The notes under the pieces were generated by a model. It saw nothing but the letters and a program-made list of their open reading frames with translations. It made no database searches and was not told the DNA's origin. The translations under genes were made by a program, and so were the position numbers. Shown piece by piece: positions 1 through 14,870 of a stretch of 64,000 nucleotides of DNA. Every line of letters starts with the position of its first letter. Within the stretch, counting starts at the first letter, position 1. Source of the DNA: Derxia lacustris (GTDB lineage: Bacteria > Pseudomonadota > Gammaproteobacteria > Burkholderiales > Burkholderiaceae_E); contig NZ_MUHU01000011.1 of NCBI RefSeq assembly GCF_002105195.1, positions 186,001 through 250,000 on the forward strand. The letters are read 5' to 3'.

Positions 1-360
1 GCCGCCGCGCTCGACGGCAACCTGCGCGAAATCACGCTCGAACAAGCGCTGGCCTGGGACCCCGACATCGTCGTGCTGGCCGGTGCCGGCGCGCTGCAAC
101 GCCCGGCCGGGCTCGGCCTGCTGCGCGCGGTGCGCGAGGGCCGGCTCTTCATCAATCCCGACGGCGTGTTCCCGTGGGATCGCTACGGCAGCGAGCTGGC
201 ACTGCAACTGCCGTGGGCCGCCAGCCGCTTCCATCCGGCGCTGTTCGGCCAACTCGATCTGGTCGCCCGCACGCGCGACTTCTACCGCCGCTTCTTCAAC
301 CATCGGCTCGATGACGACGCCGCGCGCCGCATCCTCGCCGGACTACCGCCACTGCCATGA
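1..360 (+). CDS. Periplasmic binding protein, C-terminal part (cut by window edge)
   Basis: Only the last 119 codons are in the window; the frame is open from base 1 to the TGA at 358-360. The visible part has the class III binding-protein pattern: LEQALAWDPDIVVL, then AVREGRLFINP and a Trp/Arg-rich stretch before a long C-terminal helix. It is a paralogue of the next gene, which has LEQLLAWDPDIILA and AVRDGRIYWVP at the same places. The stop overlaps the start of the next gene (ATGA), so the two are translationally coupled. By family this is the solute receptor of an ABC importer for iron chelates, cobalamin or metal oxyanions (FecB/BtuF/MolA type). The Mo context suggests molybdate or tungstate, which is inference. 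The permease and ATPase would lie left of the window. Confidence 0.75.
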   Translation, partial: AAALDGNLREITLEQALAWDPDIVVLAGAGALQRPAGLGLLRAVREGRLFINPDGVFPWDRYGSELALQLPWAASRFHPALFGQLDLVARTRDFYRRFFNHRLDDDAARRILAGLPPLP

Positions 361-1433
361 CAACGCCAGCAAAGCTGCTCCCCTTCGCGCGCCGGTGCGC
401 CGCCGTCTGCGCCGCCGCGCTGCTCGCCCTGCCGGTTCAGGCGCGCGAAATCGTCGACATGCTCGGCCGCAAGGTCGAGGTGCCCGAGCGCGTGACCGGC
501 GTCTACGGCTCGGCGCCGCCGCTCACCGTGCTGATTCATGCGCTCGATCCGGCGCTGCTGGCCGGCGTCAACTTTCCGTTCACCGAGGCCGACCGGCGCT
601 GGCTGCCGGCACGCAGCGCCGGCCTGCCGGTAATGGGCGGTCTGGTCGGCATGGGCCGCACGCTCGACGTGGAAACCCTGCTCAAGGAAAAGCCCGCGCT
701 CGGCCTGGCCTGGAACACCAGGTTCAACGACCGCGCCCGCACCGAGGAAGTGTTCGCCCGGGCCGGCGTGCCGGTGCTGTTCATCACGCTCGACAACCTC
801 GCCGACTGGGCGCCGGCGCTCGAATTCCTCGGCCGCGCCACCGGCCGCGACGCGCGCGGCAAGGCGCTGGCAGCCGAGATTCGCGGCGCGCTCGACCGCG
901 TGAACAAGGCGGTCGCCGGCGTGCCGCAATCGGCCTGGCCGCGCGTCTACTACGCCGAGAGCGCCGACGGCCTCGCGACCGAATGCGACCAGTCCTTCCA
1001 TGTGGAGCCGATCGCGCTGGCCGGCGGCTACAACGTGCTGCGCTGCTCGCCGTCCAGCCACATGGGCATGGAGCGCGTCAGCCTCGAACAGCTGCTGGCC
1101 TGGGATCCGGACATCATCCTGGCGCAGGAAGCCGCCTTCATGAGCGCGGTGAAGACCGACAGCCGCTGGCAGCGCTTGCGCGCGGTGCGCGACGGCAGGA
1201 TCTACTGGGTGCCGCATTCGCCGTTCAACTGGATGGACCGGCCGCCGTCGCTGATGCGCGCGCTCGGCATCCAGTGGCTCGCCGGGCTGTTCCATCCGCA
1301 GCGCTTCGCCTTCGACCTGAAGCAGGAAACCAGGCGCTTCTACAAGGACGTGCTCGGCATCGAGCTGGCCGACGCCGACGTGGGGGCCATCCTCAATCCG
1401 CCCGACGGTCACGAGGCCATGCACATGCACTGA
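357..1433 (+). CDS. ABC transporter periplasmic binding protein, MolA/FecB-like
   Basis: A 358-residue class III solute-binding protein. It has a Sec signal peptide (about residues 1-29, ending LPVQA before RE), an N-terminal lobe opening with the DMLGRKVEVPERV motif common to metal-oxyanion and corrinoid receptors, a long linker helix and a second lobe. The segment SPFNWMDRPPSLMRALGIQWL near residue 300 is typical of the subgroup used for molybdate, tungstate and related metals in anaerobes. The C-terminus GHEAMHMH is His/Met-rich. The start ATG overlaps the previous stop, giving two tandem receptors in one operon. Which ligand each binds cannot be read from the sequence; molybdate or a Mo chelate is inferred from the neighbouring mod genes and nifK. 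Confidence 0.8.
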   Translation: MTTPAKLLPFARRCAAVCAAALLALPVQAREIVDMLGRKVEVPERVTGVYGSAPPLTVLIHALDPALLAGVNFPFTEADRRWLPARSAGLPVMGGLVGMGRTLDVETLLKEKPALGLAWNTRFNDRARTEEVFARAGVPVLFITLDNLADWAPALEFLGRATGRDARGKALAAEIRGALDRVNKAVAGVPQSAWPRVYYAESADGLATECDQSFHVEPIALAGGYNVLRCSPSSHMGMERVSLEQLLAWDPDIILAQEAAFMSAVKTDSRWQRLRAVRDGRIYWVPHSPFNWMDRPPSLMRALGIQWLAGLFHPQRFAFDLKQETRRFYKDVLGIELADADVGAILNPPDGHEAMHMH

Positions 1434-1514: not shown

Positions 1515-2870
1515 ATGCCCGATCCCGCCTCACTGCTGCCCAGCGCCGAATGGCCTTACGTGCAGATCCTCATGCGCTTGGCGCTCAGCCTCGCGCTCGG
1601 GCTGCTGATCGGGCTGGAACGCGAGCGGCGCGGCAAGGAAGCGGGCCTGCGCACCTTCGGCTTCGTGAGCCTGCTGGGCGCGCTCGGCGGCTCGCTCGGG
1701 CACGACTTCGCGCTGCTCATCCTGGCGCTCGTGGGCCTGCTCGCCGTGCTGCTCAACGTGCAGACGCTGCGCGCCGGCCAGGGCACCGAGCTGACCACCT
1801 CGGCCGCGATGCTCGTGACCTGCGTGGCCGGCATCCTCTGCGGCCAAGGCCACACGGTTTCACCAGCGGCGGTGATGGTGATCGCCACCGCGCTGCTGGC
1901 GTGGAAGGAGCGGCTCGCGGGCTTTTCCAGCGGCCTTACCGAGGGCGAGCTGCGCTCGGCGCTGCTGCTCGCCATCCTCGCCATCGTCATCTATCCCGCG
2001 CTGCCGACCGGGCCGGTCGGGCCCTGGGGCCTCGTCGAGCCGCGCGCCGCATGGATCACGGTGATGCTCATCGCGGCCATCGGCTCGGCCAACTACATCC
2101 TCTGGAAGCTCTACGGTTCGCGCGGCACCGAGCTGTCGGGCTTTCTGGGCGGGCTGGTGAACAGCAATTTCACCGTGATCGAGCTGTCGTCGCGCTTGCG
2201 CCAGGCGTCGGGCGCGGGACTGGAGACGGCCTATCGCGGCATCCTGCTCGCCACCACGGCCATGGTCGTGCGCAATGCCGGACTGCTGCTCATCCTCGCG
2301 CCGTTCGCGCTGGTGGGCGCCCTGCCCGCCTTCGCGCTGATGCTGGTGATGGCCCTGCTGCTGGCGCTGTGGAGCTACCGGCGCCGGCATGACGACAGCG
2401 CCGCGCCCACCGCCATCAGCCTCGACCTGCCGTTCTCGCTGCCGGTGGCGCTGAAGTACGGCGCCATCTTCCTGCTGCTGCACATCGCCGGCGGCGTGAC
2501 CCAGCGCCAGCTCGGCGATGCCGGCTTCTACGCGGTGAGCGCGGTGGGCGGGCTGATGTCGAGCGCCAGCGCGGTGGCGGCCGCCGCCACGCTCGCGGCC
2601 CAGGGCAGCCTCGCGCCGACGGTGGCCGGCAACGGCGCCATCCTCGCGTCGTTCACCAGCATCGCGTTCAGCCTGTCGTTCGTGCTGCGCACGCGGCATC
2701 GGCCGCTGATCCGCCGGCTCGCGATTGCAATGGCTTGCATCGCGGCGGCGGGGCTGGTGGGCGTGCTGGCCGCGAGCAGCGCGGCGCCGGTCATCGAGCG
2801 CTGGCTGCCGCAGCTCGGCACGGCGATGACGGCACCGCCGCCCGCGCCGGTCCGCCGCCTCAGCGAATGA
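1515..2870 (+). CDS. MgtC/SapB-DUF4010 family membrane protein
   Basis: A 451-residue integral membrane protein. The N-terminal third carries the MgtC/SapB core with the conserved [21 protein letters not shown] motif (residues about 29-49). The rest is the DUF4010 domain with [17 protein letters not shown] near residue 215. About a dozen hydrophobic segments are visible. The family is poorly characterised; MgtC itself modulates ATP synthase and Mg2+/phosphate homeostasis, but that role should not be transferred to the DUF4010 branch. It starts 81 bases after the binding protein. Its last 11 bases overlap the 3' end of nifK on the opposite strand, an end-to-end convergent arrangement. Any role in metal transport is a guess from position. 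Confidence 0.8.
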
Positions 2871-4416
2871 TGTCGTAGCTGTAGTCGGTCTTGCCGGCGA
2901 CGATGGTGTTGGTGTCGAGCGCCTCGAAGAACTCGTCGAGCAGGTTCACCAGCACGCGCAGGCCGCCCTCGTAGCCCCAGATCGGATAGCGGTGGTAGTG
3001 GTGGCGGTCGAAGATCGGGAAGACGAGCCGGATCAGCGGCGTGCCGGTATCGCGCTCCAGATACTTGCCGTAGGTGTTGCCGATCAGGAAGTCGACCGGC
3101 TCGGTGAACAGCAGCGAGCGCATGTGCCACAGATCGCGCTTGGGCCAGGCCTTGCAATGGCTGCCGTAGGGGCTGGCGTCGAAGATCTTCTGCATGTCGT
3201 CGGCCCAGTCGGCATCGCCGTTGGTGGCCAGCACATGGATCGGCTCGGCGCCCAGCTCCAGCAGGAAGGCGGACATGCCGGCCAGGAAGTCGGGATCGCC
3301 GTAGAGCGCATAGCGCTTGCCGTGCAGATGCGCATGCGAATCGGCGATGGCGTCGAGCAGCTGGCCGCGTTCCTTCTCCAGCGACTCGGGCACCGGCTTG
3401 CCCGTGAGCCGCGCGATTTCCATGATGAAGGCGTCGGTCGCGGCCACGCCGATCGGGCTGTGCAGCACCACGACTTCCTGGCCCTTCTCGCGCACGTACT
3501 TGGCGGTCTTCTCGCTGCTGTAGCCCTGGAAGAAGATTGTCGCCTTGGCATGGATGGCGCGCTCGATCTCGGCCTTGGTGGTGCCGCCGTTGTACATGCG
3601 GAACTCGCCGTCCATGGGCGTGTTCCAGGCGCGCGACGGGTCGCAGAGGATGGTGTAGTCGCAGCCGAAGGCGTCGAGGATGCGGCGGATCTCGGGCATG
3701 TTGCCGACGACGAAACCGTCAAAGCCGCCGACGAAGTTGATGCTGTCGTCGGGCACGCGAACCAGCGGCTCGGTCGATTGCGCCTTGCCGTCCCAGAAGT
3801 ACTGGAGCACGCCCTTGAGCGCATTGTCGTAGCCGGTGATGTGGCTGCCGACGAAGGCCGGCGTGTGCGCGAACGGCACGTCGAAATCCTGCGGGATGCT
3901 GCCCTTCTGCTTCGAGTTCTTGATGAAGGCGTCGAGGTCGTCGCCGATCACCTCGGCCATGCAGGTGGTCGACACCGAGATCATCTCGGGCTGGTACAGG
4001 TTGTAGGAGTTGGCCAGGCCATCGATCATGTTGTTGAGGCCGCCGAACACCGCCGCGTCCTCGGTCATGGACGACGACACGCAGGACGTCGGCTCCTTGA
4101 AATGGCGCGAGAAGTGCGAGCGGTAATAGGCCACGCAGCCCTGCGAGCCATGCACGAAGGACAGCGTCTTGTGAAAGCCATGCGCAACGAACACCGCGCC
4201 GAGCGGCTGGCAGGCCTTGGCCGGGTTCACGACCAACCCTTCGCGCGCGAAGTTCTTCTCGCGGTATTCGGGCGTCTTGGTCCATTGCACGATCTCGGCG
4301 ATGGCTTCGTCGCTGTGGTTGAACTCGAACTGCTTCTTGTCGGCGAAGAGCTTCTGGTACTCGGGTTCGCGGAACAGCAGTTCGTGGTCGATGACCTTGG
4401 CGGCACTCTGGGGCAC
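2860..4416 (-). CDS. nifK: Nitrogenase molybdenum-iron protein beta chain (NifK)
   Basis: 518 residues, the normal length for Mo-type NifK, with the N-terminal extension that VnfK and AnfK lack. P-cluster cysteines are present as C69 ([11 protein letters not shown]), C94 (GSQGCVAYY) and C152 ([12 protein letters not shown]), matching Azotobacter C70, C95 and C153. The residue equivalent to Ser188 is Ala187 (FAHTPAFVG), and the residue equivalent to Phe99 is Tyr98. That is the pairing known from Gluconacetobacter diazotrophicus, where Tyr is the oxygen ligand of the oxidised P-cluster. The start is GTG with GGAG six bases upstream. Unlike the usual nifHDK operon, no nifD precedes it; the upstream neighbour is divergent. 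With NifD it would form the MoFe protein that reduces N2. Confidence 0.96.
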
Positions 4417-4497
4417 GGGGGACTCCGGTGAGGAAAGGGAAGTGAGGCGCTGTCTTGCGCGGCGGCCGGCATCCCCCCGAACCCCGGAGACCTCCGG

Positions 4498-4521
4498 CGC
4501 AATGTTTTTTAATGTATTTCG
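4498..4521. promoter_or_regulatory. ModE-like 24-bp inverted repeat upstream of nifK
   Basis: CGCAATGT-N7-TGTATTTCG matches the CGNWATGT-N7-NNNATWNCG layout shared with the boxes at 4676, 9728 and 13978, with the right half less perfect. It lies 82 bases upstream of the nifK GTG. A 6-bp inverted repeat (CCGGAG/CTCCGG, 4484-4497) abuts it. The resemblance to ModE Mo-boxes is my inference. Confidence 0.45.
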
Positions 4522-4561
4522 TCATGACGCCGATTCCGCTTGCGCTGGATCAAGCGGGCGC

Positions 4562-4577
4562 GGCACCTGCGTCGCCA
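4562..4577 (-). promoter_or_regulatory. Weak candidate sigma54 promoter for nifK
   Basis: Reading the minus strand, TGGCGACGCAGGTGCC keeps TGGC and TGC in the -24/-12 register but has GTGC instead of TTGC. The start would be near 4551, leaving a 135-base leader that contains the ModE-like box. A CCGCTTG/CAAGCGG inverted repeat (4536-4557) overlaps the predicted start. I found no TGT-N10-ACA NifA site nearby, so this is tentative. Confidence 0.25.
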
Positions 4578-4646
4578 TTTCCAGGCGAACGATGAGCATT
4601 TCTCTTCGTACCGAGCTGCGAAAAGGCGACGGCCAGCACTCGCATC

Positions 4647-4662
4647 CGGCATGCTCATTGCC
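4647..4662 (+). promoter_or_regulatory. Sigma54 -24/-12 promoter for the di-heme gene
   Basis: CGGCATGCTCATTGCC fits TGGCACG-N4-TTGCW with the GGC and TTGC cores exact and in register. Transcription would begin near 4673, just before the ModE-like box at 4676-4699. Consensus from established knowledge; its use here is inferred. Confidence 0.5.
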
Positions 4663-4675
4663 TTCGGACAGTTTT

Positions 4676-4699
4676 CGTAATGTTTACGACAATATTCCG
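4676..4699. promoter_or_regulatory. ModE-like 24-bp inverted repeat at the di-heme gene start
   Basis: CGTAATGT-N7-AATATTCCG has the same length and half-site pattern as the boxes at 9728 and 13978. It occupies about +4 to +27 relative to the predicted sigma54 start, so a bound regulator would block initiation or elongation. It covers the ATG at 4680, which is one reason to prefer the start at 4704. Confidence 0.55.
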
Positions 4700-4703
4700 A
4701 AAA

Positions 4704-6113
4704 ATGGGCAACAGAAGCAGCAGATCCGGCAACGCGGGCCGTCCACCGCGTCTCCTGCGCAGGCTCGCTGCAAGCGCTTTCACGCTGCTGGTCGCGGCCT
4801 GCGGCGGCGGCGGTGGCGGCGCACCGGGCCAGCCGGCCGGCGCTGGCGCCGACACCGCCGGCGCCGATCTCGACACCGCGCTGCGCGCCGCGCTCGCGGC
4901 CAATGCCGTCGTGCTGCCCGCGCGACCCGAGGTGGCCGACGCCCGGTACAACCTCGGCGCCAACCTGTTCCAGAGCACGCTGCTGTCGGGCAACCGCAAG
5001 GTCTCGTGCGCGAGCTGCCATCCGATCGGCAACGCGGGCGTCGACAACCTCGTGCTGTCGATCGGCATCAACGGCAGCGGCAGTCCGCCGACGCGTACCG
5101 GCTCGCCGGTCATCCATCGCAACGCGCCCGGTCTCGTCAACCTCGGACTCGGCATCGCCACGCGGCTCTTTCACGACGGCCGCGTCGCCCTCGTCGATGG
5201 CCGCTACGTCACGCCAGCCGGCAGCCAGCTGCCCGACGGCCTTGCCAGCGTGGTCGCGGCCCAGGCGCTGTTTCCGCTGCTGTCGCGTGACGAGATGCTC
5301 GGCTGGCCCGCCGCCGACGACGACAACGAGCTGGCCGACCTCGTCGCGGCCGACACCGCGCCCGAGTCCGACCCGAAGCCGGTGTGGGCCGGCATCGTCG
5401 CGCGACTCGTGGCCGATGCCGGCTTCGCGAGCCAGTTGCGCGTCGCCTATCCCGACCTGCCGCCCGGCGCCATCGGCATCGAGCACATCGCAAACGCGCT
5501 GGCCGCCTTCGAGCAGCGGCGCTGGTATTCGCTGGGCGGTAACCGCTACCTGCCCGGCTATCTCGCCGGCAGCGCCGAGCTGCCCGACGACGCCAAGCGC
5601 GGCGGCATCCTGTTCCACGGCCGTGCCGGCTGCGCGCGCTGCCACTCGGGGCCGCTGTTCACCGACCAGAAGTTCCACAACCTCGCGGTGCCGCAGATCG
5701 GCCCGGGCTTCGGCGCCGGCGCACGCGCCACGCCGGCCCATGACGCCGGCCGCGAAGGCGTCACGGGCGACGCCGCCGACCGCTACGCCTTCCTCACGCC
5801 CTCGCTCTGGGAGGTGCGCCACACCTTCCCCTATCTGCACAACGGCGTGTACGCCACGCTCGACGAAGTCATCCGCCACCACCTCGCGCCGGCCGAACGC
5901 GCCCTCGCCTTCCGCTGCACCGGCGAGCTGCGCAGCGGGGGCAACGTCGTCGCCTGCCGCGACAGCACGACCGCCGCCGCGCTCTACGCCGACATGGTCG
6001 CCCGCCTCGACCCGCTGCTCGCCGCCCCGCCGTCGCTGAGCGACGCCGACATCGCCGATCTCATCGCCTTCCTCAACCAGCTCACCGACGGCAACAACGT
6101 CTCGGTGCGCTGA
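4704..6113 (+). CDS. Di-heme cytochrome c peroxidase/MauG-family lipoprotein
   Basis: 469 residues from ATG 4704 (an in-frame ATG at 4680 lies inside the operator). An Arg-rich n-region and hydrophobic stretch end in the lipobox LVAAC, followed by a Gly-rich linker, so it is probably a lipoprotein. Two c-type heme sites are clear: CASCH (about residue 102) and CARCH (about residue 310), the spacing of the bacterial di-heme peroxidase/MauG/MbnH superfamily. The C-terminal part has TPSLWEVRHTFPYLHNG, typical of that family's second domain. Members reduce H2O2 or oxidise residues of a partner protein. The partner may be the lipoprotein encoded 25 bases downstream. Its place between nifK and the mod genes, with the same promoter architecture as the TonB receptor, suggests a role in Mo handling; that is inference. 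Confidence 0.85.
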   Translation: MGNRSSRSGNAGRPPRLLRRLAASAFTLLVAACGGGGGGAPGQPAGAGADTAGADLDTALRAALAANAVVLPARPEVADARYNLGANLFQSTLLSGNRKVSCASCHPIGNAGVDNLVLSIGINGSGSPPTRTGSPVIHRNAPGLVNLGLGIATRLFHDGRVALVDGRYVTPAGSQLPDGLASVVAAQALFPLLSRDEMLGWPAADDDNELADLVAADTAPESDPKPVWAGIVARLVADAGFASQLRVAYPDLPPGAIGIEHIANALAAFEQRRWYSLGGNRYLPGYLAGSAELPDDAKRGGILFHGRAGCARCHSGPLFTDQKFHNLAVPQIGPGFGAGARATPAHDAGREGVTGDAADRYAFLTPSLWEVRHTFPYLHNGVYATLDEVIRHHLAPAERALAFRCTGELRSGGNVVACRDSTTAAALYADMVARLDPLLAAPPSLSDADIADLIAFLNQLTDGNNVSVR

Positions 6114-6138
6114 CCCACGCCAACTACAGGAGAACTTC

Positions 6139-7563
6139 ATGTCAACCCGCAAGACGGGGCGCCTGCGCGCGCTCCTCGCGGGCGCGTTCGCGCTCGCCCT
6201 CGCCGCGTGCGGCAGCGGCAGCGACGGGCCGGCCAGCGCGCCGGTCACGCCCTCGGCCTCGTTCATGGTTAAGGCCGGCGGCACGGTCGCGCTGATGCCC
6301 GCCGACGCCACCACCGCCGTCGACCCGACCGACGCGGCCAGCAGCCCGAGCGGCTCGACGCCCTACTTCGTCCCGTCGGGCGCGATCGGCGTGACCGCGC
6401 TCAAGACGCTCATGAACGACGCCACCACCTTCCCGGCGGCCGAGCAGCCGCTGACCGTCACGGTCGGCACCGACAGCTACAAGGGCTACCGCCTCGCCGA
6501 CGTGGTCGTGCGCGCCACGAAGTTCCGCCCGGCCGACTACAACACCGGCGCCTTCGGCGCGACCACCGCGATCGTCGCGGTCGGCATCGACGGGCGCATG
6601 TCGGTGTTCTCGTTCACCGAGCTGATCCGCACCGCCAACGGCGAGAAGACCATCGTCGCCTACGAGAAGAACGGCGCCGCCCTGCCCGACGCCGAAGGCG
6701 CGATGGAACTGATCGCCGGCGCCGACACCGATCCCGCGCTGCGTCGCACGCCGCGCCTGGCCGAGCTGCATGTGCGCAATGACTACGTGGCCACGAGCGG
6801 CACGCTCGCCTCGGCCGCGACGGCCGCCGCCGTGGCGCCGGGCGATGTCGCGTTCACGATCTCGGGCGCGGTCAACAGCAGCATCACCGTGACGGCGGCG
6901 ACGCTGTCGGCCACGTCGTCGCAGGGGCTGTACGCGGTGGACCGCATCGGCAGCCGCGCTGCAAGCGCTTTCACCACCTACCACTTCCAGGAATACGGCC
7001 CGCGCCACATGAACTACTGGTACGGCCAGGGCGTGCGCCTGACCGACGTGCTCGACACCGCCGGCCTGCAATTCCCGGCCGAGAAGAACCGCTGCTTCGT
7101 CGTGATCACGAGCCTCAACAACCAGCCGGCGCTGTTCTCCTGCGGCGAGCTGTACAACAGCGCGGTGGGCATCGGCGACGGCCTCGCGGGCGCCGGCAAC
7201 CGCAGCCGCTCGAAGGGCGTGCTGCTCGTGACCGACGACTTCCGCATGGGCACGGGCAACAACATGATGATGACCTGCTGGAACGACTACTCCACCTGCA
7301 CCAAGACCGACGCCGGCAATCCCGAGGCCTACACCTCGGCCATGGACGCCAACGGCGACCACGTGAACTACCAGTCGATCGCCCTCGTCTCGACCGAGGA
7401 CAAGCTGCCCTTCATCCCCTTCGGCCGCTGGTATCCGATGCCGGCCAACTGCGCCAGCTTCGTCTGGAAGTGCAACGCCTGGATCGACGTGGGCGAGCGG
7501 CTGCAGCAGGGCATCCGCGGCATGACCGTGTACTACGCGGGCGCCAGCGGCGGCATGCACTGA
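6139..7563 (+). CDS. Lipoprotein with repeated sulfite-oxidase-like (molybdopterin-binding fold) domains
   Basis: 474 residues with a lipobox LALAAC (Cys about 24) and a good AGGAG site. It starts 25 bases after the di-heme gene and is surely co-transcribed. Two segments resemble the sulfite oxidase/YedY fold core: residues about 110-200 (YKGYRLADVVVRATKF, then VGIDGRMSVFSFTEL and MELIAGADTDPALRRTPRLAEL) and about 290-460 (YWYGQGVRLTDVLDTAGL to RGMTVYYAG). The Cys that ligates Mo in that family is not obvious at the expected place in the first segment. The second half has several Cys residues and a Met-rich NNMMMTCW stretch that could bind metal. I do not recognise a characterised homologue. 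The pairing with a di-heme enzyme recalls MbnH/MbnP, where the heme enzyme modifies its partner, but the partner fold here differs. Confidence 0.65.
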   Translation: MSTRKTGRLRALLAGAFALALAACGSGSDGPASAPVTPSASFMVKAGGTVALMPADATTAVDPTDAASSPSGSTPYFVPSGAIGVTALKTLMNDATTFPAAEQPLTVTVGTDSYKGYRLADVVVRATKFRPADYNTGAFGATTAIVAVGIDGRMSVFSFTELIRTANGEKTIVAYEKNGAALPDAEGAMELIAGADTDPALRRTPRLAELHVRNDYVATSGTLASAATAAAVAPGDVAFTISGAVNSSITVTAATLSATSSQGLYAVDRIGSRAASAFTTYHFQEYGPRHMNYWYGQGVRLTDVLDTAGLQFPAEKNRCFVVITSLNNQPALFSCGELYNSAVGIGDGLAGAGNRSRSKGVLLVTDDFRMGTGNNMMMTCWNDYSTCTKTDAGNPEAYTSAMDANGDHVNYQSIALVSTEDKLPFIPFGRWYPMPANCASFVWKCNAWIDVGERLQQGIRGMTVYYAGASGGMH

Positions 7564-7583
7564 CCGCCGGCACCGGCGGCCGG

Positions 7584-7606
7584 CGCTGGCGGCGCCCCCG
7601 CCAGCG
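7584..7606. terminator. GC hairpin between convergent genes
   Basis: CGCTGGCGG and CCGCCAGCG form a perfect 9-bp stem with a 5-base loop between the lipoprotein gene and the TonB receptor gene, which converge here. No T-run follows on either strand, so termination is possible but not shown. Confidence 0.3.
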
Positions 7607-7686
7607 GCCGCGTCCGGCACCCATGCCGGCGCGCCGGTCATGCGGCGCGCCGGGCGCGGACGACACCCGCGCCCGGCGCCGTCTGC

Positions 7687-9714
7687 TCAGAACTTCACCC
7701 GCCCCTGCACAAAGCCATACCGCCCCAACTCCGGGAACCCCTCGGCATACGCATACACCCGGTCAAACAGATTGCGCACACCCGCCTCCAGCAGCACATC
7801 CGGCGCCACTGTCCAGCCCGCCTTCAACCCCGCCACCGCAAACCCGTTGGCCACCTGCGTGCCGGTGCTCGCGCTGTAGGCATAGCTCTGGGCATCGACC
7901 GTGGCGGTCACATCCACCGTTGGCGTCGCATGCAGCCGCGCAAACACGAAGAAGCGGTTGCGCGGCACGTCGGTGAGCTTGACGGTCGGATTGCTGCGGT
8001 TCTTGCGCGCGAGGCCGGTGTAGTTGCCGCCCAGGTCGAGCAGCGCGCTGCGCCAGTCGGCGCTCAGTTCCACGCCGTCCACGCGCACGCGGCCCAGGTT
8101 CTGCGCCTGCTGGCAGAAGCCGACCGGCCGGTAGTTGGGGCAGGCGCCGCTGGCGAACACCACGTTCTGGATCTGGTCGCTGATGTCGCTGTGGAAGACC
8201 GCGACGCCGAGGTCGGTGCCCGCCACGCGACCGTCCCAGCCCAGCTCGTAATGGTTGGCGCGCTCGGGATCGAGGCCGGCATTCGGCACCGCCTGCCCGA
8301 GCCGATAGCTGTAGCGGTCCTTGATGGTCGGGAAGCGGCTCTTGCGTGCCACGGTCGCATGCAGCCGGCCGTCCTCGCCCAGCGTGTAGAAGGCGCCGAC
8401 CTGCCCGTTGATCGCCGAGTCGTCGACCAGCGGGAAGTCGGTCACGGCCTTGGTGGTCGAGTTGTAGTCCTGCGCCTCGACCGCGCGACGCGCATCGCGG
8501 CCGATGCCGGCCACCAGCGTGAGGTTGGGCGTGACGGCCTGGCTGTCCTCGATGCTGAAGCTGGTGGTGCGGTCCTTGAACAGGCGCCAGGGCTCGCCGG
8601 CGTTGTGCTCGCGATGCACGTCGATCTTGAGCTGGGCCGCGAGGCTGAGCTTGTTGCCCGGCGCGATGGCGATGTCGTCCTGCAGCGCGAGGCCGTTGCT
8701 GTAGTCGTCGTACCAGCTCTGGAACGACGAGCCCTTCTTCTGCGTGGTGTAGGTCGCGTCGTCATAGGTGAACAGCGAGTTCTGGAACTTGTCGTTGAAC
8801 GCGCGGACCTTGACCGTGTGGTCGCCGAAGCGGGTGCTGGTGTTGAGGTAGACGCTGGTCTTGTTCCAGTACGGCCAGCGCCAGTAGGCCGGGCTGGCCA
8901 CGCTGCCGGTGTAGGGCGGATCGCCCTTGCTGCCGTTCTGCTGGATGAAGCTGAGCGCGTATTCGTCGCTGGCGTTGGGCGTGAGGCCGAGCTTGAGGTT
9001 GACCTTGCTGTCGTTGGCATCGCTGTTGTCGCGCTTGCCGCCGTCGTCGCCCCTGGACGGCTTGAAGCCCGAGGGCAGCGGCGTCCAGTCCTGGTCGACG
9101 CTGGAGGCGCCGAGTTGCAGGTACCAGAGGCCCTGGTTGCTGCCCAGATTGGCCCAGGCGCGGTTGCGGAACGGCACGCCCTTGCCGACGAAATCGAGCC
9201 CGGCGCCGACCTCGCCTTCGAGCGCCTTCTGCGGCCGGCGGCTCACGAGGTTGATCGCGCCGCCGAGCGTGTTCGAGCCATAGGCCATCGCGCTGAAGCC
9301 CTTGCTGATGTCGATGCGCGCCAGGTCGAAGGTGGTGAAGCGGCCCAGGTCGACATTGCCGTCATAGGGCACGTAGACCGGAATGCCGTCGATGAAGAGC
9401 TGCACCTGGCGCGTGTCGAAGCCGCGCACGTAGACCACCTGCTCATTGCGCTGGCCGTGCTTGCCCAGGTTGATGCCGGGCGACAGCGTGAGCGCATCGC
9501 CGACGGTGAGGCGGTCGTTGGCCTGGATGGTCGCGGCGTCGATCACGTCGGCGGTTCCGACCGGCGGGCCACTGGCCGGACCGGCCACCTCGACCTTGCC
9601 GAGGTTGAAGGCGGGCGTCGTGTCCTCGGCGCCGGCCGCGCCGGCAAGGCCGCCGCCGATGGCGGCGATGAGGAGAGCGAGCCGATGACGGCGCGGGACG
9701 GATGGCAGGCGCAT
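7687..9714 (-). CDS. TonB-dependent outer membrane receptor
   Basis: 675 residues with a signal peptide (about 1-29, ending AGAAGA before EDTTP), a plug domain (VGTADVIDAATIQANDRLTVGDAL, then VYVRGFDTRQVQLFIDGIPVYVPYDG and GGAINLVSRRP near residues 50-165) and a beta-barrel ending in aromatic F (GRVKF). It is a single-domain transporter without an N-terminal signalling extension. Such receptors bring metal chelates, corrinoids or other scarce solutes across the outer membrane using TonB energy. It lies directly downstream of modD on the same strand but has its own sigma54 promoter, a NifA-type upstream site and a ModE-like operator. I infer that it imports a molybdenum species such as a catecholate-bound molybdate; the substrate is not shown by the sequence. 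Confidence 0.85.
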   Translation of the reverse strand: MRLPSVPRRHRLALLIAAIGGGLAGAAGAEDTTPAFNLGKVEVAGPASGPPVGTADVIDAATIQANDRLTVGDALTLSPGINLGKHGQRNEQVVYVRGFDTRQVQLFIDGIPVYVPYDGNVDLGRFTTFDLARIDISKGFSAMAYGSNTLGGAINLVSRRPQKALEGEVGAGLDFVGKGVPFRNRAWANLGSNQGLWYLQLGASSVDQDWTPLPSGFKPSRGDDGGKRDNSDANDSKVNLKLGLTPNASDEYALSFIQQNGSKGDPPYTGSVASPAYWRWPYWNKTSVYLNTSTRFGDHTVKVRAFNDKFQNSLFTYDDATYTTQKKGSSFQSWYDDYSNGLALQDDIAIAPGNKLSLAAQLKIDVHREHNAGEPWRLFKDRTTSFSIEDSQAVTPNLTLVAGIGRDARRAVEAQDYNSTTKAVTDFPLVDDSAINGQVGAFYTLGEDGRLHATVARKSRFPTIKDRYSYRLGQAVPNAGLDPERANHYELGWDGRVAGTDLGVAVFHSDISDQIQNVVFASGACPNYRPVGFCQQAQNLGRVRVDGVELSADWRSALLDLGGNYTGLARKNRSNPTVKLTDVPRNRFFVFARLHATPTVDVTATVDAQSYAYSASTGTQVANGFAVAGLKAGWTVAPDVLLEAGVRNLFDRVYAYAEGFPELGRYGFVQGRVKF

Positions 9715-9727
9715 TGCTGGACTCCTT

Positions 9728-9751
9728 CGTTATGTTGCATTGGAAATTACG
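9728..9751. promoter_or_regulatory. ModE-like 24-bp inverted repeat at the TonB receptor promoter
   Basis: CGTTATGT-N7-GAAATTACG. It lies at about +2 to +25 from the predicted sigma54 start and immediately upstream of the AAGGAG ribosome binding site of the receptor gene. It shares length and half-site pattern with the boxes at 4676 and 13978. Confidence 0.6.
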
Positions 9752-9901: not shown

Positions 9902-9917
9902 TGTAGATATCGCTACA
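9902..9917. promoter_or_regulatory. NifA-type upstream activator site (TGT-N10-ACA)
   Basis: TGTAGATATCGCTACA is an exact TGT-N10-ACA with extended TGTAG/CTACA arms. It sits about 150-165 bases upstream of the sigma54 start of the TonB receptor, a normal distance for a NifA enhancer site. It overlaps the last codons of modD. Confidence 0.6.
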
Positions 9918-10770
9918 GCGCGCCTGCGGACGGGCCGAGCCGCACGGCCACGTCGGCCGGCGGCGCGGTGTAGGGCGCCGAGGTGACGAGGAAGTCGGCA
10001 CCGGCAGCCACATAGGCGCCGGCGTTGTCGGCCTTGACGCCGCCAGCCGCCGCGATGCTGGCGCGCAACCCGGCCGCATCGATCAGCCGGCGCGTCTCGG
10101 CGACGGCGGCGGGCGGGAATTTTTCGAGCTGGAGCACGTCGGCGCCGGCCTCGGCCCAGCGCAGCGCCTCGGCCGGATCGGCGACCTCGACGACGAGCTT
10201 TTTCTCGGGCTCCTGGGCGCGCAGGCGGGCGACGGTGTCGGCCGGCGCTTCGGTGAGGAAGGCGCGGTGCTCGGCGAACACCAGGATGCTTTCCGACAGC
10301 CCGAGCCGATGCAGCCGCGCGCCGGCGCAGCGCACCGCCTTCACCGACATGGCCTTGGCGCCGGGCGCGGTCTTGCGGGTGCAGGCCACGGGCAGGCGGC
10401 GCCCCTCATGCTCGGCCGCCGCGACGATGGCTGCCGCCGAGGTGGCGATGCCGCTGGCCCATTCGACCAGGATTTGCGCGGCCTTCCAGGCGCGGTGCAG
10501 CTGGCCGGCCGTGCCATGCGCCACCAGGATCGGCGCGCCGGCGTCGAGCGCGTCGCCGCTGGCGGCCAGCAGTTCGGCGCGCGCGCCGGTCAGCTCGAAC
10601 ATGCGCGCGGCTTCTTCGGCGCCGCACACGGTCATCGCGCGGCGGGCGTTGAAATGGGCATGCGCGGGGCTGGCGCCGATGGCCAGACTGAGCGTGGTGA
10701 GGTCGCCGGCCGGCACATCGTCGGCCAGCAGCTGCCATAGCGCGGCGTCGGAAAGCGCGCGTTCTTGCAT
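9913..10770 (-). CDS. modD: ModD, NadC-like protein of molybdate operons
   Basis: 285 residues, homologous to quinolinate phosphoribosyltransferase: ADDVPAGDLTT near the N-terminus, CTRKTAPGAK near residue 132, VEVADPAEALRWAEAGADVLQLEKF near 195, and the barrel end AAGGVKADNAGAYVAAGADFLVTSAPY. The ModD branch occurs in mod operons; its reaction is not settled, so I do not assign NAD synthesis. It starts 28 bases after modC and is the last gene of the mod operon. Its stop lies inside the NifA-type site that serves the downstream TonB receptor gene, so the receptor may be reached both by mod operon read-through and from its own promoter. Confidence 0.88.
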   Translation of the reverse strand: MQERALSDAALWQLLADDVPAGDLTTLSLAIGASPAHAHFNARRAMTVCGAEEAARMFELTGARAELLAASGDALDAGAPILVAHGTAGQLHRAWKAAQILVEWASGIATSAAAIVAAAEHEGRRLPVACTRKTAPGAKAMSVKAVRCAGARLHRLGLSESILVFAEHRAFLTEAPADTVARLRAQEPEKKLVVEVADPAEALRWAEAGADVLQLEKFPPAAVAETRRLIDAAGLRASIAAAGGVKADNAGAYVAAGADFLVTSAPYTAPPADVAVRLGPSAGAL

Positions 10771-10798: not shown

Positions 10799-11932
10799 TC
10801 AGCCGAGGACCGCCACGCCTTTCACCTGCGCATGCACGGCCAGCCCCGGCCCGATCCCGAGCTGTTCGGCCGACCTGCGCGTGATGCGCGACAGCAGCGG
10901 CACGCCGCCCACGTCGAGCCGGATCAGGCTGCGTCCGCGTTCGTCGTCGCTGCGCGCGACCACGGTGGCCGGCAGCACATTCTGGATGCTGGAGCGCGAC
11001 GGCGGATCGAGCGCCACGCTCACGTCGCGCGCGGCGATCTGAATGCGCACCGCCGCGCCGGGCGCGCGGTCGAGGCTGGCGACCCACACGGCGCCGCCGG
11101 CAAAGTCGAGCCGGCTCAGGCCATAGCCGTCGTCGCGCAGGCCGAGCCGGGTGGTGACGACCACGCCGCCCTCCTCGGCCTGGGCCAGCGGCAGGTCGGC
11201 GCGCGCGGTCACCTCGGCGATCGGGCCGCTGGCCAGCACCCGGCCGCGCTCCAGCAGCACCAGGTGATCGGCCAGCTGGGCCACCTCGTGCATCGAGTGG
11301 CTGACGTAGATCATCGGCAGCGCCAGCTCGTCGCGCAGCCGCACCAGATAGGGCAGCACCTCGGCCTTGCGCGCGTCGTCGAGCGCCGACAGCGGCTCGT
11401 CGAGCAGCAGCACGCGCGGGCTGGTCATGAGCGCGCGCGCAATGCCCACGCGCTGCTTCTCGCCGCCCGACAGCCGCGCCGGCTTGCGGTCGAGCAGCGC
11501 CTCGATGCCGAGCAGCGCCACCACTTCGTCGAAGTCGATGCGGCGCTCGGCGGCCGGCACGCGCTTGCAGCCGTAGTCGATGTTCCTGCGCACGCTCATG
11601 TGCGGAAACAGCCGCGCATCCTGGAACACGAAGCCGAGCGCCCGCTCATGCACCGGCACGAACACGCCGGCGGCGCTGTCCTGCCAGACCGCGTCGCCGA
11701 TGGCCACGCGGCCGCTGCACTTGGCCTCAAGTCCGGCGATGGCGCGCAGGCAGGTGGTCTTGCCCGAGCCCGACGGGCCGAACAGCGCGGTCACGCCGGC
11801 GCCCGGCAGCGCCAGATCGGCGGCCAGACTGAAGCCCGGCCAGTCGAGCCTGAGGCTGGCGACGATGGGCGAGGCGACGCCGGCACGGCCGAGGCTGCCG
11901 GCGGCGGGCAGCGACTGATCGTTCATGTCCAT
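10799..11932 (-). CDS. modC: Molybdate ABC transporter ATP-binding protein ModC
   Basis: 377 residues from ATG 11932 (a second in-frame ATG lies at 11926). It has Walker A GPSGSGKTT, Q-loop VFQDARLF, signature LSGGEKQRVGIARAL, Walker B RVLLLDEPLSALD and switch His in YVSHSMHE. A C-terminal Mop/TOBE domain occupies about residues 310-375 (NVLPATVVA, then VHAQVKGVAVLG), as in classical ModC that senses or binds oxyanion. It energises molybdate import through ModB. It begins 11 bases after modB in the operon. The open frame extends far upstream through modB, but similarity to ModC starts only here. Confidence 0.93.
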   Translation of the reverse strand: MDMNDQSLPAAGSLGRAGVASPIVASLRLDWPGFSLAADLALPGAGVTALFGPSGSGKTTCLRAIAGLEAKCSGRVAIGDAVWQDSAAGVFVPVHERALGFVFQDARLFPHMSVRRNIDYGCKRVPAAERRIDFDEVVALLGIEALLDRKPARLSGGEKQRVGIARALMTSPRVLLLDEPLSALDDARKAEVLPYLVRLRDELALPMIYVSHSMHEVAQLADHLVLLERGRVLASGPIAEVTARADLPLAQAEEGGVVVTTRLGLRDDGYGLSRLDFAGGAVWVASLDRAPGAAVRIQIAARDVSVALDPPSRSSIQNVLPATVVARSDDERGRSLIRLDVGGVPLLSRITRRSAEQLGIGPGLAVHAQVKGVAVLG

Positions 11933-11943
11933 GCGCCCTGCCC

Positions 11944-12663
11944 TCAGCCGCGCGCCGGCGCGCCGGGCGCCAGCCAGTTGCCGCGCCGGCCCAGCAGGCT
12001 CATGAGCAGCAGCACGGTGAAGGAGAACGCCACCATGCCGCCGGCCAGCACATGCGCCTTGGCATAGTCGAGCGCCTCGACCTCGCTGTAGACCAGCACC
12101 GACAGCACGCGGGTCTTGTCGGGGATGTTGCCGCCGACCATCAGCACGATGCCGAACTCGCCGACCGTGTGCGCAAAGCCCAGCACCGTGGCCGCCGCAA
12201 AGCCCGGCCCGGCAAGCGGAATCACCACGCTGAAGAAGCGGTCGAGCGGCCCGGCGCGCAGCGTGGCAGCCGCCTCGATCGGACCGTCGCCAATGCCCTG
12301 GAACGCGGCCTGGAGCGGCTGCACCACGAACGGCAGCGAATACACCACCGACGCCAGCACCAGCCCGTGGAAGGTGAACGGCAGCCCGCCCAGGCCCAGC
12401 CAGCGCATGGCCTGCCCGAGCGCGCCCTGCGGCCCCATCAGCAGCAGCAGATAAAAGCCCAGCACCGTCGGCGGCAGCACGATGGGCAGCGACACCGCCG
12501 CGCCGATCGGCGCCTTGAGCCAGGAGCGCGTGCGCGCCAGCCACCACGCGATCGGCGTGCCCACCAGCAGCAGCAGCGCCGTGGTGAGCGAGGCGAGTTC
12601 GAGCGTGAGCCGGATCGCCGACCATTCGGCGGCGCCAATCAGCGGGGCGGCGGTGTCGGGCAT
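11944..12663 (-). CDS. modB: Molybdate ABC transporter permease ModB
   Basis: 239 residues with five to six transmembrane helices and the permease motif around AGPLDRFFSVVIPLAGPGFAAATVLGFAHTVGEFG, where the EAA-type loop (EAAATLRAGPLDRFFSVVIPLA) contacts ModC. The GEFGIVLMVGGNIPDKTRVL segment after it is characteristic of ModB and CysU-type permeases. It lies 6 bases after modA and 11 bases before modC, in one operon. A ModB homodimer forms the inner-membrane channel for molybdate. Confidence 0.93.
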   Translation of the reverse strand: MPDTAAPLIGAAEWSAIRLTLELASLTTALLLLVGTPIAWWLARTRSWLKAPIGAAVSLPIVLPPTVLGFYLLLLMGPQGALGQAMRWLGLGGLPFTFHGLVLASVVYSLPFVVQPLQAAFQGIGDGPIEAAATLRAGPLDRFFSVVIPLAGPGFAAATVLGFAHTVGEFGIVLMVGGNIPDKTRVLSVLVYSEVEALDYAKAHVLAGGMVAFSFTVLLLMSLLGRRGNWLAPGAPARG

Positions 12664-12669
12664 GGGCGA

Positions 12670-13434
12670 TCAGGGCAGGTCGTAGCCGAAGCTCTTGATG
12701 ACGGCCTGCGCCTGCGGTCCCTTGAGGAAGGCCAGCAGCGCCTCGGCGCCCGGCTTGCCCTTGGCGCTGCTCAGCAGCACCGCGTCCTGGCGGATCTGGG
12801 TGTAGAGCGACGACGGCACGACCCAGGCCGAGCCCTCGGCGATCTTGCCGTCCCTGGTCACCTGCGACAGCGCGACGAAGCCAAGCTCGGCATTGCCGGT
12901 GGCGATGAACTGATAGGCCTGGGTGATGTTCTCGCCGACCACGAATCTGGGCTGGAGCGCGTCATGCACGCCGAGCTTCTTGAGCACCTCGACGCCGGCG
13001 GCGCCATAGGGCGCGAGCTTGGGATCGGCGAAGGCCAGATGCTCGAACTTGCCGCTCTTGAGCACCTCGCCCTTGTCGTCGACAAAGCCGGGCTTGGCGC
13101 TCCACAGCACCAGCTTGCCGATGGCATAGGTGCGCGCCGTGCCGGCCACGCCGAGGCCTTCCTTTTCGAGCTTGGCCGGGGTTTCGTCGTCGGCGGCGAT
13201 CAGCACGTCGAACGGCCCGCCGGCCTTGATCTGCGCATAGAACTTGCCGGTCGAGCCGGTCGACAGCACCACCTTGTGGCCGGTCGCGGCTTCGAAGGCA
13301 GGGATGATCTTCTGGATCGGCGCGGTGAAATTGGCGGCGACGGCGATGCTCACTTCCTCGGCCTGGGCGGCCACGGTGGCGAGGGCAAGGCCGGCCAGCG
13401 CGAGCAGGCGGATCAGCGGACGGAAAGGCTTCAT
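12670..13434 (-). CDS. modA: Molybdate ABC transporter binding protein ModA
   Basis: 254 residues starting MKPFRPL, with a Sec signal peptide ending AAQAEE. The mature protein opens SIAVAANFTAPIQKIIPAFEAATGHKVVLSTGSTGKFYAQI, the ModA N-lobe with the Ser residues that bind the oxyanion, and continues with GPFDVLIAADDETPAKLEKEG. An in-frame ATG further upstream was rejected because GGAG lies 7 bases before this start. It delivers periplasmic molybdate to ModBC. It is the second gene of the mod operon, 28 bases after the sulfite-oxidase-like gene. Confidence 0.94.
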   Translation of the reverse strand: MKPFRPLIRLLALAGLALATVAAQAEEVSIAVAANFTAPIQKIIPAFEAATGHKVVLSTGSTGKFYAQIKAGGPFDVLIAADDETPAKLEKEGLGVAGTARTYAIGKLVLWSAKPGFVDDKGEVLKSGKFEHLAFADPKLAPYGAAGVEVLKKLGVHDALQPRFVVGENITQAYQFIATGNAELGFVALSQVTRDGKIAEGSAWVVPSSLYTQIRQDAVLLSSAKGKPGAEALLAFLKGPQAQAVIKSFGYDLP

Positions 13435-13462
13435 CGGGAGGCTCCGGTTGGGATGTGAACGG

Positions 13463-13945
13463 TCAGAACACCCGCTGCACGACGATGCGGGTGAGGTTGC
13501 GCACATGGCGCGGGCCGGTGACTTCGTCCATCAGGCTCAGCAGCACGAAGTCGCCCTCGCGCGCGGTCAGCGGTGCGGCGTCGTCGTCGAAGGCGATGAA
13601 CACGCCATCGCCGAGCGGGGTGTGGAACAGCTCGGCCCAGCTGAACAGGGCGCGATAGCCGTCGTCGGCCTCGGCCACCACCACCAGCCGGCGGCAGTCG
13701 TCATGCCGGTCGACGCTCGGGCGCGCGGCCTCGACCAGCGTGCGCAGGGCCACGCCGCGATAGCGCCGTGCCGCGCCGATGCCGCCGCCGAGGCAGGTGG
13801 GCGTGAAATCGACCAGCCGCGTGGGCAGCGCCCGCAGCGTGTCGGCGCAAAGCACGAGCGGCCGGTCGACATTGCCGTTGACGATCAGCCCCTGGCGCGG
13901 CGCGACCGGCTGGACAAGGCTGGCGAGGAAATGTTCGGGCTTCAT
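13463..13945 (-). CDS. Short sulfite-oxidase-like molybdopterin-fold protein heading the mod operon
   Basis: 160 residues, no signal peptide, with GGAG before ATG 13945. It looks like an isolated Moco-binding core of the sulfite oxidase/YedY family: VDFTPTCLGGG (Cys in the place of the Mo-ligating CxG), YRGVALRTLVEAA, then VVVAEADDGYRALFSWAELF and LLSLMDEVTGPRHVRNLTRIVVQ. Whole enzymes of this family are longer. It is the first gene after the sigma54/ModE-box promoter and is followed by modA. It may bind Mo cofactor or molybdate, or be a degenerate enzyme; nothing in the sequence proves activity. The lipoprotein at 6139-7563 shows related folds, which ties the two transcription units together. 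Confidence 0.7.
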   Translation of the reverse strand: MKPEHFLASLVQPVAPRQGLIVNGNVDRPLVLCADTLRALPTRLVDFTPTCLGGGIGAARRYRGVALRTLVEAARPSVDRHDDCRRLVVVAEADDGYRALFSWAELFHTPLGDGVFIAFDDDAAPLTAREGDFVLLSLMDEVTGPRHVRNLTRIVVQRVF

Positions 13946-13977
13946 GCGGGCTCCGTGGCGGGACTGTCGGGTTTGTA

Positions 13978-14001
13978 CGCTATGTTGTTGCGTGCATATC
14001 G
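13978..14001. promoter_or_regulatory. ModE-like 24-bp box at the mod operon promoter
   Basis: CGCTATGT-N7-TGCATATCG is the most symmetrical member of the set and is close to known Mo-boxes (CGNTATN with inverted partner). It overlaps the predicted sigma54 start at 13994 and lies 33 bases upstream of the first mod operon gene. The right half (TGCATATCGA) is repeated directly at 14037-14046. Confidence 0.65.
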
Positions 14002-14004
14002 ACC

Positions 14005-14020
14005 AGCAAGACACAGGCCA
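14005..14020 (-). promoter_or_regulatory. Sigma54 -24/-12 promoter for the mod operon
   Basis: On the minus strand TGGCCTGTGTCTTGCT has exact TGGC and TTGCT in register. The predicted start, 13994, falls inside the ModE-like box. It lies between the modE stop and the first gene of the operon. Confidence 0.6.
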
Positions 14021-14054: not shown

Positions 14055-14870
14055 TCAGTGGCTCGCCGCCAGCAGCACCACCGAGGGATCGAACACCGCG
14101 ATGAGCGAGGTGCCGACGGCCGGCAGCGCGTTCTCGTCGGCCGCCTCCTGCAGGCAGAACACCGACAGTCCGCCCGGCAGCGCGAGCGCCAGCTCGGCCC
14201 GGCCGGCCTCGAAATCGATCTCGGCGAGCTGGCCTTCGAGCCGGTTGGCGCGCGCCGCGACCAGCGCATCGGGCCCGACCGCGGTTGCCGCGCTCGACTT
14301 GAACACCGCGATCGCCGGCGCGCCGACATCGAGCCCGAGGTTGTCGAGACTGAGCCGCGACACCAGCGCGCGCAGGCTCTGGGCATTGGCCAGCCGCAGC
14401 TGCACCGAGGCCTGCGGCCCGACCAGATCGATGCGCTCGACCACGCCGGCGAGCTGGTTGCGCGCGCTCATGCGCAGGCTCAGCCGACCGAGCATCGCCA
14501 GCCAGTGCTGCATGTCGCTGCCGCCGCTGGCGACCCAGTCGAGGAATTCCTGCTGGCGCGCATGCAGCGCCGCATAGGTGGCGAGCAGGGTGCGGCCGGC
14601 CTCGGTGAGCGCCGCGCCGCCGCCGCCGGCACCGCCCTTGGTGCGCTCGACGATGGCTTCGCCGGCGAGGTTGTTGAGCGCATCGATCGCGCCCCAGGCG
14701 GTGCGGTAGCTGATGCCGACCGCCTGGGCGGCGGCGCTGATCGAGCCGCCTTCGGCGATCTGGCGCAGCAGCTCGAAGCGCTTGGGACCGACCAGTTCCT
14801 GGCCGTCGCGCTCGACGAAGAGTTGGGTGGCGAACAGCATGGGCTTGTGCGCCGAATCTTTGGGTGACAT
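14055..14870 (-). CDS. modE: Molybdate-responsive regulator ModE
   Basis: 271 residues. The N-terminal winged helix (GPKRFELLRQIAEGGSISAAAQAVGISYRTAWGAIDALNN, residues about 28-68) is the ModE/LysR-type DNA-binding domain. The C-terminal half has two Mop domains (SARNQLAGVVERI about 135, and VAARANRLEGQLAEID about 205) that bind molybdate at the dimer interface. Full-length ModE represses Mo uptake genes when molybdate is plentiful and may activate Mo-enzyme genes. It is upstream of and co-directional with the mod operon, 109 bases from the first gene, and is the obvious candidate to bind the 24-bp boxes found at four promoters here. Confidence 0.94.
   Translation of the reverse strand: MSPKDSAHKPMLFATQLFVERDGQELVGPKRFELLRQIAEGGSISAAAQAVGISYRTAWGAIDALNNLAGEAIVERTKGGAGGGGAALTEAGRTLLATYAALHARQQEFLDWVASGGSDMQHWLAMLGRLSLRMSARNQLAGVVERIDLVGPQASVQLRLANAQSLRALVSRLSLDNLGLDVGAPAIAVFKSSAATAVGPDALVAARANRLEGQLAEIDFEAGRAELALALPGGLSVFCLQEAADENALPAVGTSLIAVFDPSVVLLAASH

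Follow-up and report, generated by a model that had tools for sequence, protein, structure and literature searches.

A conserved pair of a di-heme enzyme and a sulfite-oxidase-fold lipoprotein with a ModE-type operator in Derxia lacustris, possibly serving molybdenum scavenging in diazotrophs

The stretch of DNA analysed here (the window; 64,000 nucleotides of Derxia lacustris contig NZ_MUHU01000011.1, positions 186,001 to 250,000 of the forward strand) carries two adjacent genes amid determinants of molybdenum (Mo) uptake, the first encoding a di-heme enzyme and the second a partner protein with two sulfite-oxidase-type domains (Table 1). Both open reading frames were located as originally predicted, on the plus strand with a gap of 25 nt, and the gene of a TonB-dependent receptor is indeed convergent with them. 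Anchoring of both products as lipoproteins, which had been proposed as well, agrees with the lipobox Cys that we found by inspection in all sequences of both proteins (VAAC/LAGC/LVAC and LAAC/LNAC/LSAC). No characterised homologue of the pair was found, in line with the first description of the locus.

Table 1. Features of the locus discussed in the text, in window coordinates.
Feature	Position	Strand	Remarks
Periplasmic binding protein (Peripla_BP_2)	357..1433	+	MolA-related (HI1472 among matches)
nifK, full-length second copy	2860..4416	-	divergent from the pair
Tract identical to Derxia gummosa DSM 723	4191..7710		3,520 bp; contains the pair
Candidate sigma54 -24/-12 element CGGCATGCTCATTGCC	4647..4662	+	weak: two mismatches, local-background P about 0.05
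ModE-type operator CGTAATGTT-N6-AATATTCCG	4676..4699	+	ends 4 nt before the start codon
Di-heme bCcP/MauG-superfamily enzyme	4704..6113	+	469 aa; lipoprotein signal VAAC; PF03150
Partner lipoprotein	6139..7563	+	474 aa; two PF00174 (sulfite-oxidase Mo-fold) domains
TonB-dependent receptor	7687..9714	-	homologues (40-44%) with modE and/or single-domain PF00174 protein elsewhere
ModE-type operator, palindromic	9728..9751	-	upstream of the TonB receptor; consensus scan
modD	9913..10770	-	TIGR01334 above cut-off
modC, modB, modA	10799..13506	-	molybdate ABC transporter
Single-domain PF00174 protein ("Ox183")	13463..14014	-	relative of the lipoprotein domains; Mo-ligand Cys kept
modE	14055..14870	-	HTH and TOBE/Mop domains

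With an E-value of 9e-24 against CCP_MauG (PF03150) and two CXXCH heme motifs (CASCH at residue 102, CARCH at residue 310), the first gene product belongs to the bCcP/MauG superfamily. The original prediction of a MauG/MbnH-like enzyme thus holds for the superfamily and the hemes, but is less certain for the chemistry. Scores for MauG (TIGR03791; 94.4 against a cut-off of 443.85) and MbnH (TIGR04039; 106.7 against 362.85) stay below the family thresholds, and so does the best NCBIfam match, TIGR03981 (233 bits over 333 residues, cut-off 340 bits). The latter describes MauG-like proteins associated with the His-Xaa-Ser system, of which no genes were recognised among the examined neighbours of the enzyme. 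Moreover, His393 of the enzyme is aligned with the Tyr ligand of MbnH (6e1c), and, to judge by the end points of the alignment, it probably corresponds to MauG Tyr294. In MauG, the exchange of Tyr294 for His abolishes its cofactor synthesis. As His393 occupies the MbnH Tyr position, the heme chemistry of the enzyme may differ from that of MauG. The same RHHL motif is present in the Phaeobacter and G422 homologues of the enzyme. On Phaeobacter plasmids, the nearest MauG homologues (39%) adjoin a CRTAC1-family gene and hence a different partner; at L041:8881-11802 such a distant homologue is convergent with the CRTAC1-family gene, possibly forming another enzyme/partner pair.

The second gene product matches Oxidored_molyb (PF00174) in two stretches (29.6 bits, gathering score 24). 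This family was recovered in all four members of the lipoprotein family and was the only one in the Pfam search, and no NCBIfam match to MbnP (TIGR04052) was obtained for any of the four at E-values up to 1. The predicted repeated molybdopterin-fold segments in place of an MbnP fold are consequently well reflected by the profiles. No meaningful match emerged from PDB searches with either the sequence or the profile of the lipoprotein, and no MopE/CorA chain was among the solved structures matched by the sequence. AlphaFold2 models from four-sequence alignments were of low confidence (pLDDT 30 and 35, one model per protein), so that the fold is assigned from profiles only. Compared directly, domains 1 and 2 show no significant match; their kinship follows from the single-domain PF00174 family, to which each is related (hhalign P of 2e-17 for domain 1 and 6e-9 for domain 2).

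In five of six sequences of this single-domain family, a Cys is aligned with the Mo-ligand Cys of sulfite oxidase. Both lipoprotein domains lack it, the column being occupied by Val in domain 1 and by Phe283 in domain 2, and for this reason an interpretation of the lipoprotein as a molybdopterin enzyme is not warranted. At the Mo-Cys position, domain 2 instead features the loop FQEYGPRHMN(Y/F)W, invariant in all lineages and including the sole invariant His of the protein (His290). Five Trp residues (294, 381, 431, 443 and 448) are invariant as well; they represent every Trp of the window lipoprotein, all lie in domain 2, and Trp294 is the one inside the loop segment. Six Cys residues are likewise invariant.

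The pair is very rare. Beyond the window genome, a search through 84,980 species genomes, which detects close relatives only, recovered the lipoprotein in Derxia gummosa DSM 723 and in three MAGs (L018, L019 and L020). The di-heme gene lies directly upstream of the lipoprotein gene in all four of these genomes, so the pair does co-occur outside D. lacustris, a point on which the original prediction had staked itself. Since L018 and L020 are close relatives (95–96% protein identity), we count three independent lineages, namely Derxia, L018/L020 and L019, two of which are known from MAGs only. A chance neighbourhood of the two genes was discounted in view of the conservation of the pair in these three lineages. 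In sampled genomes of the class (369), order (399) and phylum (398), no two-domain lipoprotein was found outside Derxia, and a plasmid search with the lipoprotein returned single-domain matches only. The comparison of L018 with L020 yields dN/dS values of about 0.07 (lipoprotein) and about 0.09 (enzyme), which indicates purifying selection and maintenance of both genes; overall, the lipoprotein is the better conserved of the two.

All genomes holding the pair possess nifH and nifK, with nifH of L020 present as fragments at contig ends. Across the order, nifK occurs in 30 of 200 sampled genomes (15%), and the chance of encountering nif in all three independent lineages is about 0.003. In L019, the pair is part of a nif cluster and is oriented divergently from nifHDK, and in Derxia its neighbour is the second nifK.

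The association with Mo is also visible in the upstream region. An ad hoc consensus detected two ModE-type boxes in the window (0.01 expected from shuffles), one in front of the pair and one in front of the TonB receptor. Because this consensus was partly derived from these very sites, the published ModE consensus (PMC545781, PMC2700814) was applied as an independent test, scoring about 150 nt upstream of the pair in each lineage with P-values from the local background. The box in the window fits moderately well (11/16, P 0.003), and matches were likewise obtained for L018 (13/16, P 0.001), L020 (14/16, P <0.0005) and L019 (11/16, P 0.009), while the box of the TonB receptor is less striking by this measure. 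With an upstream operator conserved across lineages, the pair is a candidate member of a ModE regulon. A gene for ModE itself is present in L018, L019 (here with a match below the family cut-off) and L020, and the Derxia island has two. From the location of the operator at the start codon, we infer that Mo-loaded ModE would repress the pair. Of the shared sigma54/ModE-box promoter that had been proposed, the ModE-type box is thus retained, whereas the sigma54 element is weak and borderline: a relaxed search gave a better match in L019 (P 0.02) and none upstream of the pair in L018/L020, and the strict pattern was absent in front of the pair and matched less often in the window than expected by chance. 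Sigma70-type promoters were not found either.

Apart from modABCD and modE, the surroundings offer further hints of Mo transport. To the left of the window, the same contig encodes a second ModE, Mop (TOBE) proteins, a FecCD-type permease with its ATPase and a siderophore-type TonB receptor. The best solved relative of the permease is MolB HI1471 (E 8e-56; next 3e-43), and molybdate transport by MolBC-A is well established (PMC4031551). Taken together, the Derxia island comprises two TonB receptors, two modE genes, modABCD, Mop proteins, a MolB-like permease and a MolA-like binding protein. The MolBC-like transporter (L026:14924-19200), the MolA-like protein at the left edge of the window and the siderophore-type TonB receptor adjoin two Mop genes, and this cluster could possibly mediate TonB-dependent uptake of molybdate or of a molybdophore. 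An MgtC/DUF4010 membrane protein is encoded at window positions 1515-2870, between the MolA-like gene and nifK.

A survey for modE and a TonB receptor in genomes with the pair, as suggested at the outset, showed ModE in each genome tested, but the receptor adjacent to the pair in Derxia only. In L018/L020, the receptor homologue (44%) is found on another contig than the pair, beside a DHOR protein, a solute-binding protein, modE, modA and ModE boxes, and no homologue was found in the 2.2-Mb MAG of L019. DHOR (PF06537) di-heme enzymes together with a solute-binding protein occur in ModE/TonB clusters at L026:10873-13921, left of the window, and at L112:8240-10968, so that Mo uptake is linked to a second type of di-heme enzyme.

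A simpler arrangement exists in other Burkholderiales. In L046, L047 and L048, the gene of a homologous TonB receptor adjoins modE and the gene of an exported PF00174 protein with one domain; the L048 version of this protein carries a fused c-type cytochrome domain. This module resembles the window locus in its TonB receptor, its SUOX-fold domain, its ModE gene and its ModE boxes, but it differs by the absence of a MauG-like enzyme, by having one domain, in which the Mo-ligand Cys is usually kept, and by the lack of nifH above cut-off (none of four genomes having the simpler module only). The single-domain profile was matched in 9 of 200 genomes of the order at an E-value of 1e-10. Linkage of the exported single-domain protein to ModE and a TonB receptor was seen in several Burkholderiales (window 13463-14014 and L044-L049), and no description of such a module was found in the open-licence papers searched.

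The passage of Mo across the outer membrane of Gram-negative nitrogen fixers is poorly understood. By joining a MauG-type enzyme/partner pair to a ModE operator, to TonB receptors and to a MolB-like permease, the locus represents a testable system. Our main reading, to which we assign a probability of about 0.5, is that both genes constitute a single ModE-repressed operon that serves Mo scavenging in diazotrophs, in which the enzyme acts on a partner that captures or docks Mo. When Mo is scarce, ModE would leave the operator and both proteins would be made and lipid-anchored in the envelope, probably at the outer membrane. The di-heme enzyme would then oxidise its partner, most likely at a Trp or Tyr within QEYGPRHMN(Y/F)W in domain 2. 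The Cys-less sulfite-oxidase-fold partner could serve as a capture or docking protein for Mo or a Mo complex and might feed Mo to the ModE-controlled TonB receptor, and from there to the MolBCA-like and ModABC transporters. The more specific version, in which a MauG-type enzyme converts Trp294 or a neighbouring residue to yield a protein "molybdophore" that delivers Mo to the TonB receptor, only in diazotrophs and under Mo starvation, is tentative and less likely than not. The Mo capture or redox-release module of the original prediction is supported in part: the sequences bear out a conserved, ModE- and diazotroph-linked unit among Mo-uptake genes, whereas modification of the partner by the enzyme, Mo binding by the partner and a location of either protein on the outer surface are predictions.

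On the best reading, the pair would work like CorA/CorB and MbnP/MbnH do for copper, with another partner fold. In the copper-repressed CorA/CorB system, the gene of a di-heme protein shares a transcript with that of a surface copper protein, whose copper site contains kynurenine (PMC3912023), and MbnP/MbnH often adjoin TonB transporters (PMC3621798). With CorA/CorB of Methylomicrobium album and MopE/SACCP of Methylococcus capsulatus (PMC3912023), the pair would share the architecture of a metal-repressed operon for an envelope metal protein and a di-heme bCcP/MauG-family partner. In the known case an oxidised Trp is situated near the metal, which is copper there, whereas our pair has a ModE/Mo context and a PF00174 partner, with modification and metal binding being predicted. 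MbnP/MbnH (TIGR04052/TIGR04039; PMC3621798) similarly combine an adjacent di-heme enzyme and partner, often near a TonB-dependent transporter, but here the partner is not MbnP, the Tyr ligand is replaced by His393 and the context is Mo instead of Cu. Copper enzyme/partner pairs of this type and the enzyme superfamily are already known. For the fold of the partner, the predicted control by Mo and the restriction to diazotrophs, no precedent was found in the open-licence literature searched. If the mechanism holds true, metal capture by heme-enzyme/partner pairs would extend from copper to Mo and to a new partner fold, and a molybdoenzyme fold would have been re-used without its cofactor ligand.

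An alternative option could be a redox release, in which the enzyme acts as electron-transfer or peroxidase module freeing molybdate from a lipoprotein-docked Mo chelate, e.g., a catechol-type molybdophore, and no protein is modified. Such a release agrees with the context almost equally well: the pair resides in a TonB/ABC metallophore-type Mo island, DHOR, which is unrelated to the enzyme, accompanies a solute-binding protein in like clusters of Derxia and L018/L020, the cytochrome fusion in L048 brings a single-domain relative together with a heme domain, and His393 hints at a heme with bis-His ligation for electron transfer. The Trp/His segment that is invariant in the partner, however, points rather to a protein substrate or a metal site, no molybdophore biosynthesis genes were noticed beside the pair, and we consider this alternative rather unlikely as a whole. 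Distinctly less probable is an ordinary peroxidase protecting nitrogenase or the uptake proteins from peroxide, with the lipoprotein merely co-expressed; the bCcP superfamily and the solved peroxidases among the matches of the enzyme would suit this role, but not the strict pairing in all lineages, the stronger conservation of the lipoprotein, the ModE box and the MauG-like nature of the best curated family matches. Sulfite oxidase and SorAB share with our locus the PF00174 fold family and a heme protein as neighbour, and the adjoining Mo genes could likewise speak for a lipoprotein acting as Mo-cofactor oxidoreductase with the di-heme protein as its electron acceptor. We regard this as very improbable, since both of the divergent domains lack the Mo-ligating Cys and since Mo repression via a ModE-type operator at the start codon is not expected for a Mo enzyme.

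Returning to the favoured scavenging operon, its history in Derxia deserves mention. On the one contig checked, alignments to D. gummosa average ~83% identity over 330 kb, amid which a single 3,520-bp tract is identical, the next longest perfect run being 145 bp. With one end inside nifK and the other in the last codons of the TonB gene, the tract contains exactly the pair, and recent recombination is its likeliest cause. An assembly chimera or contamination from D. gummosa, which the isolated perfect tract and a genome contamination estimate of 6.82% might indicate, is highly improbable, given that the tract is embedded in a 333-kb contig with no other such tract, that the genome has no second native copy, that recent homologous recombination fits equally, and that the pair is present anyway in D. 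gummosa and three MAGs. The second nifK, which lies far from the main nifHDK cluster (G000:C12) and is 82% identical to the main copy, is kept in both Derxia genomes with 89% identity between them.
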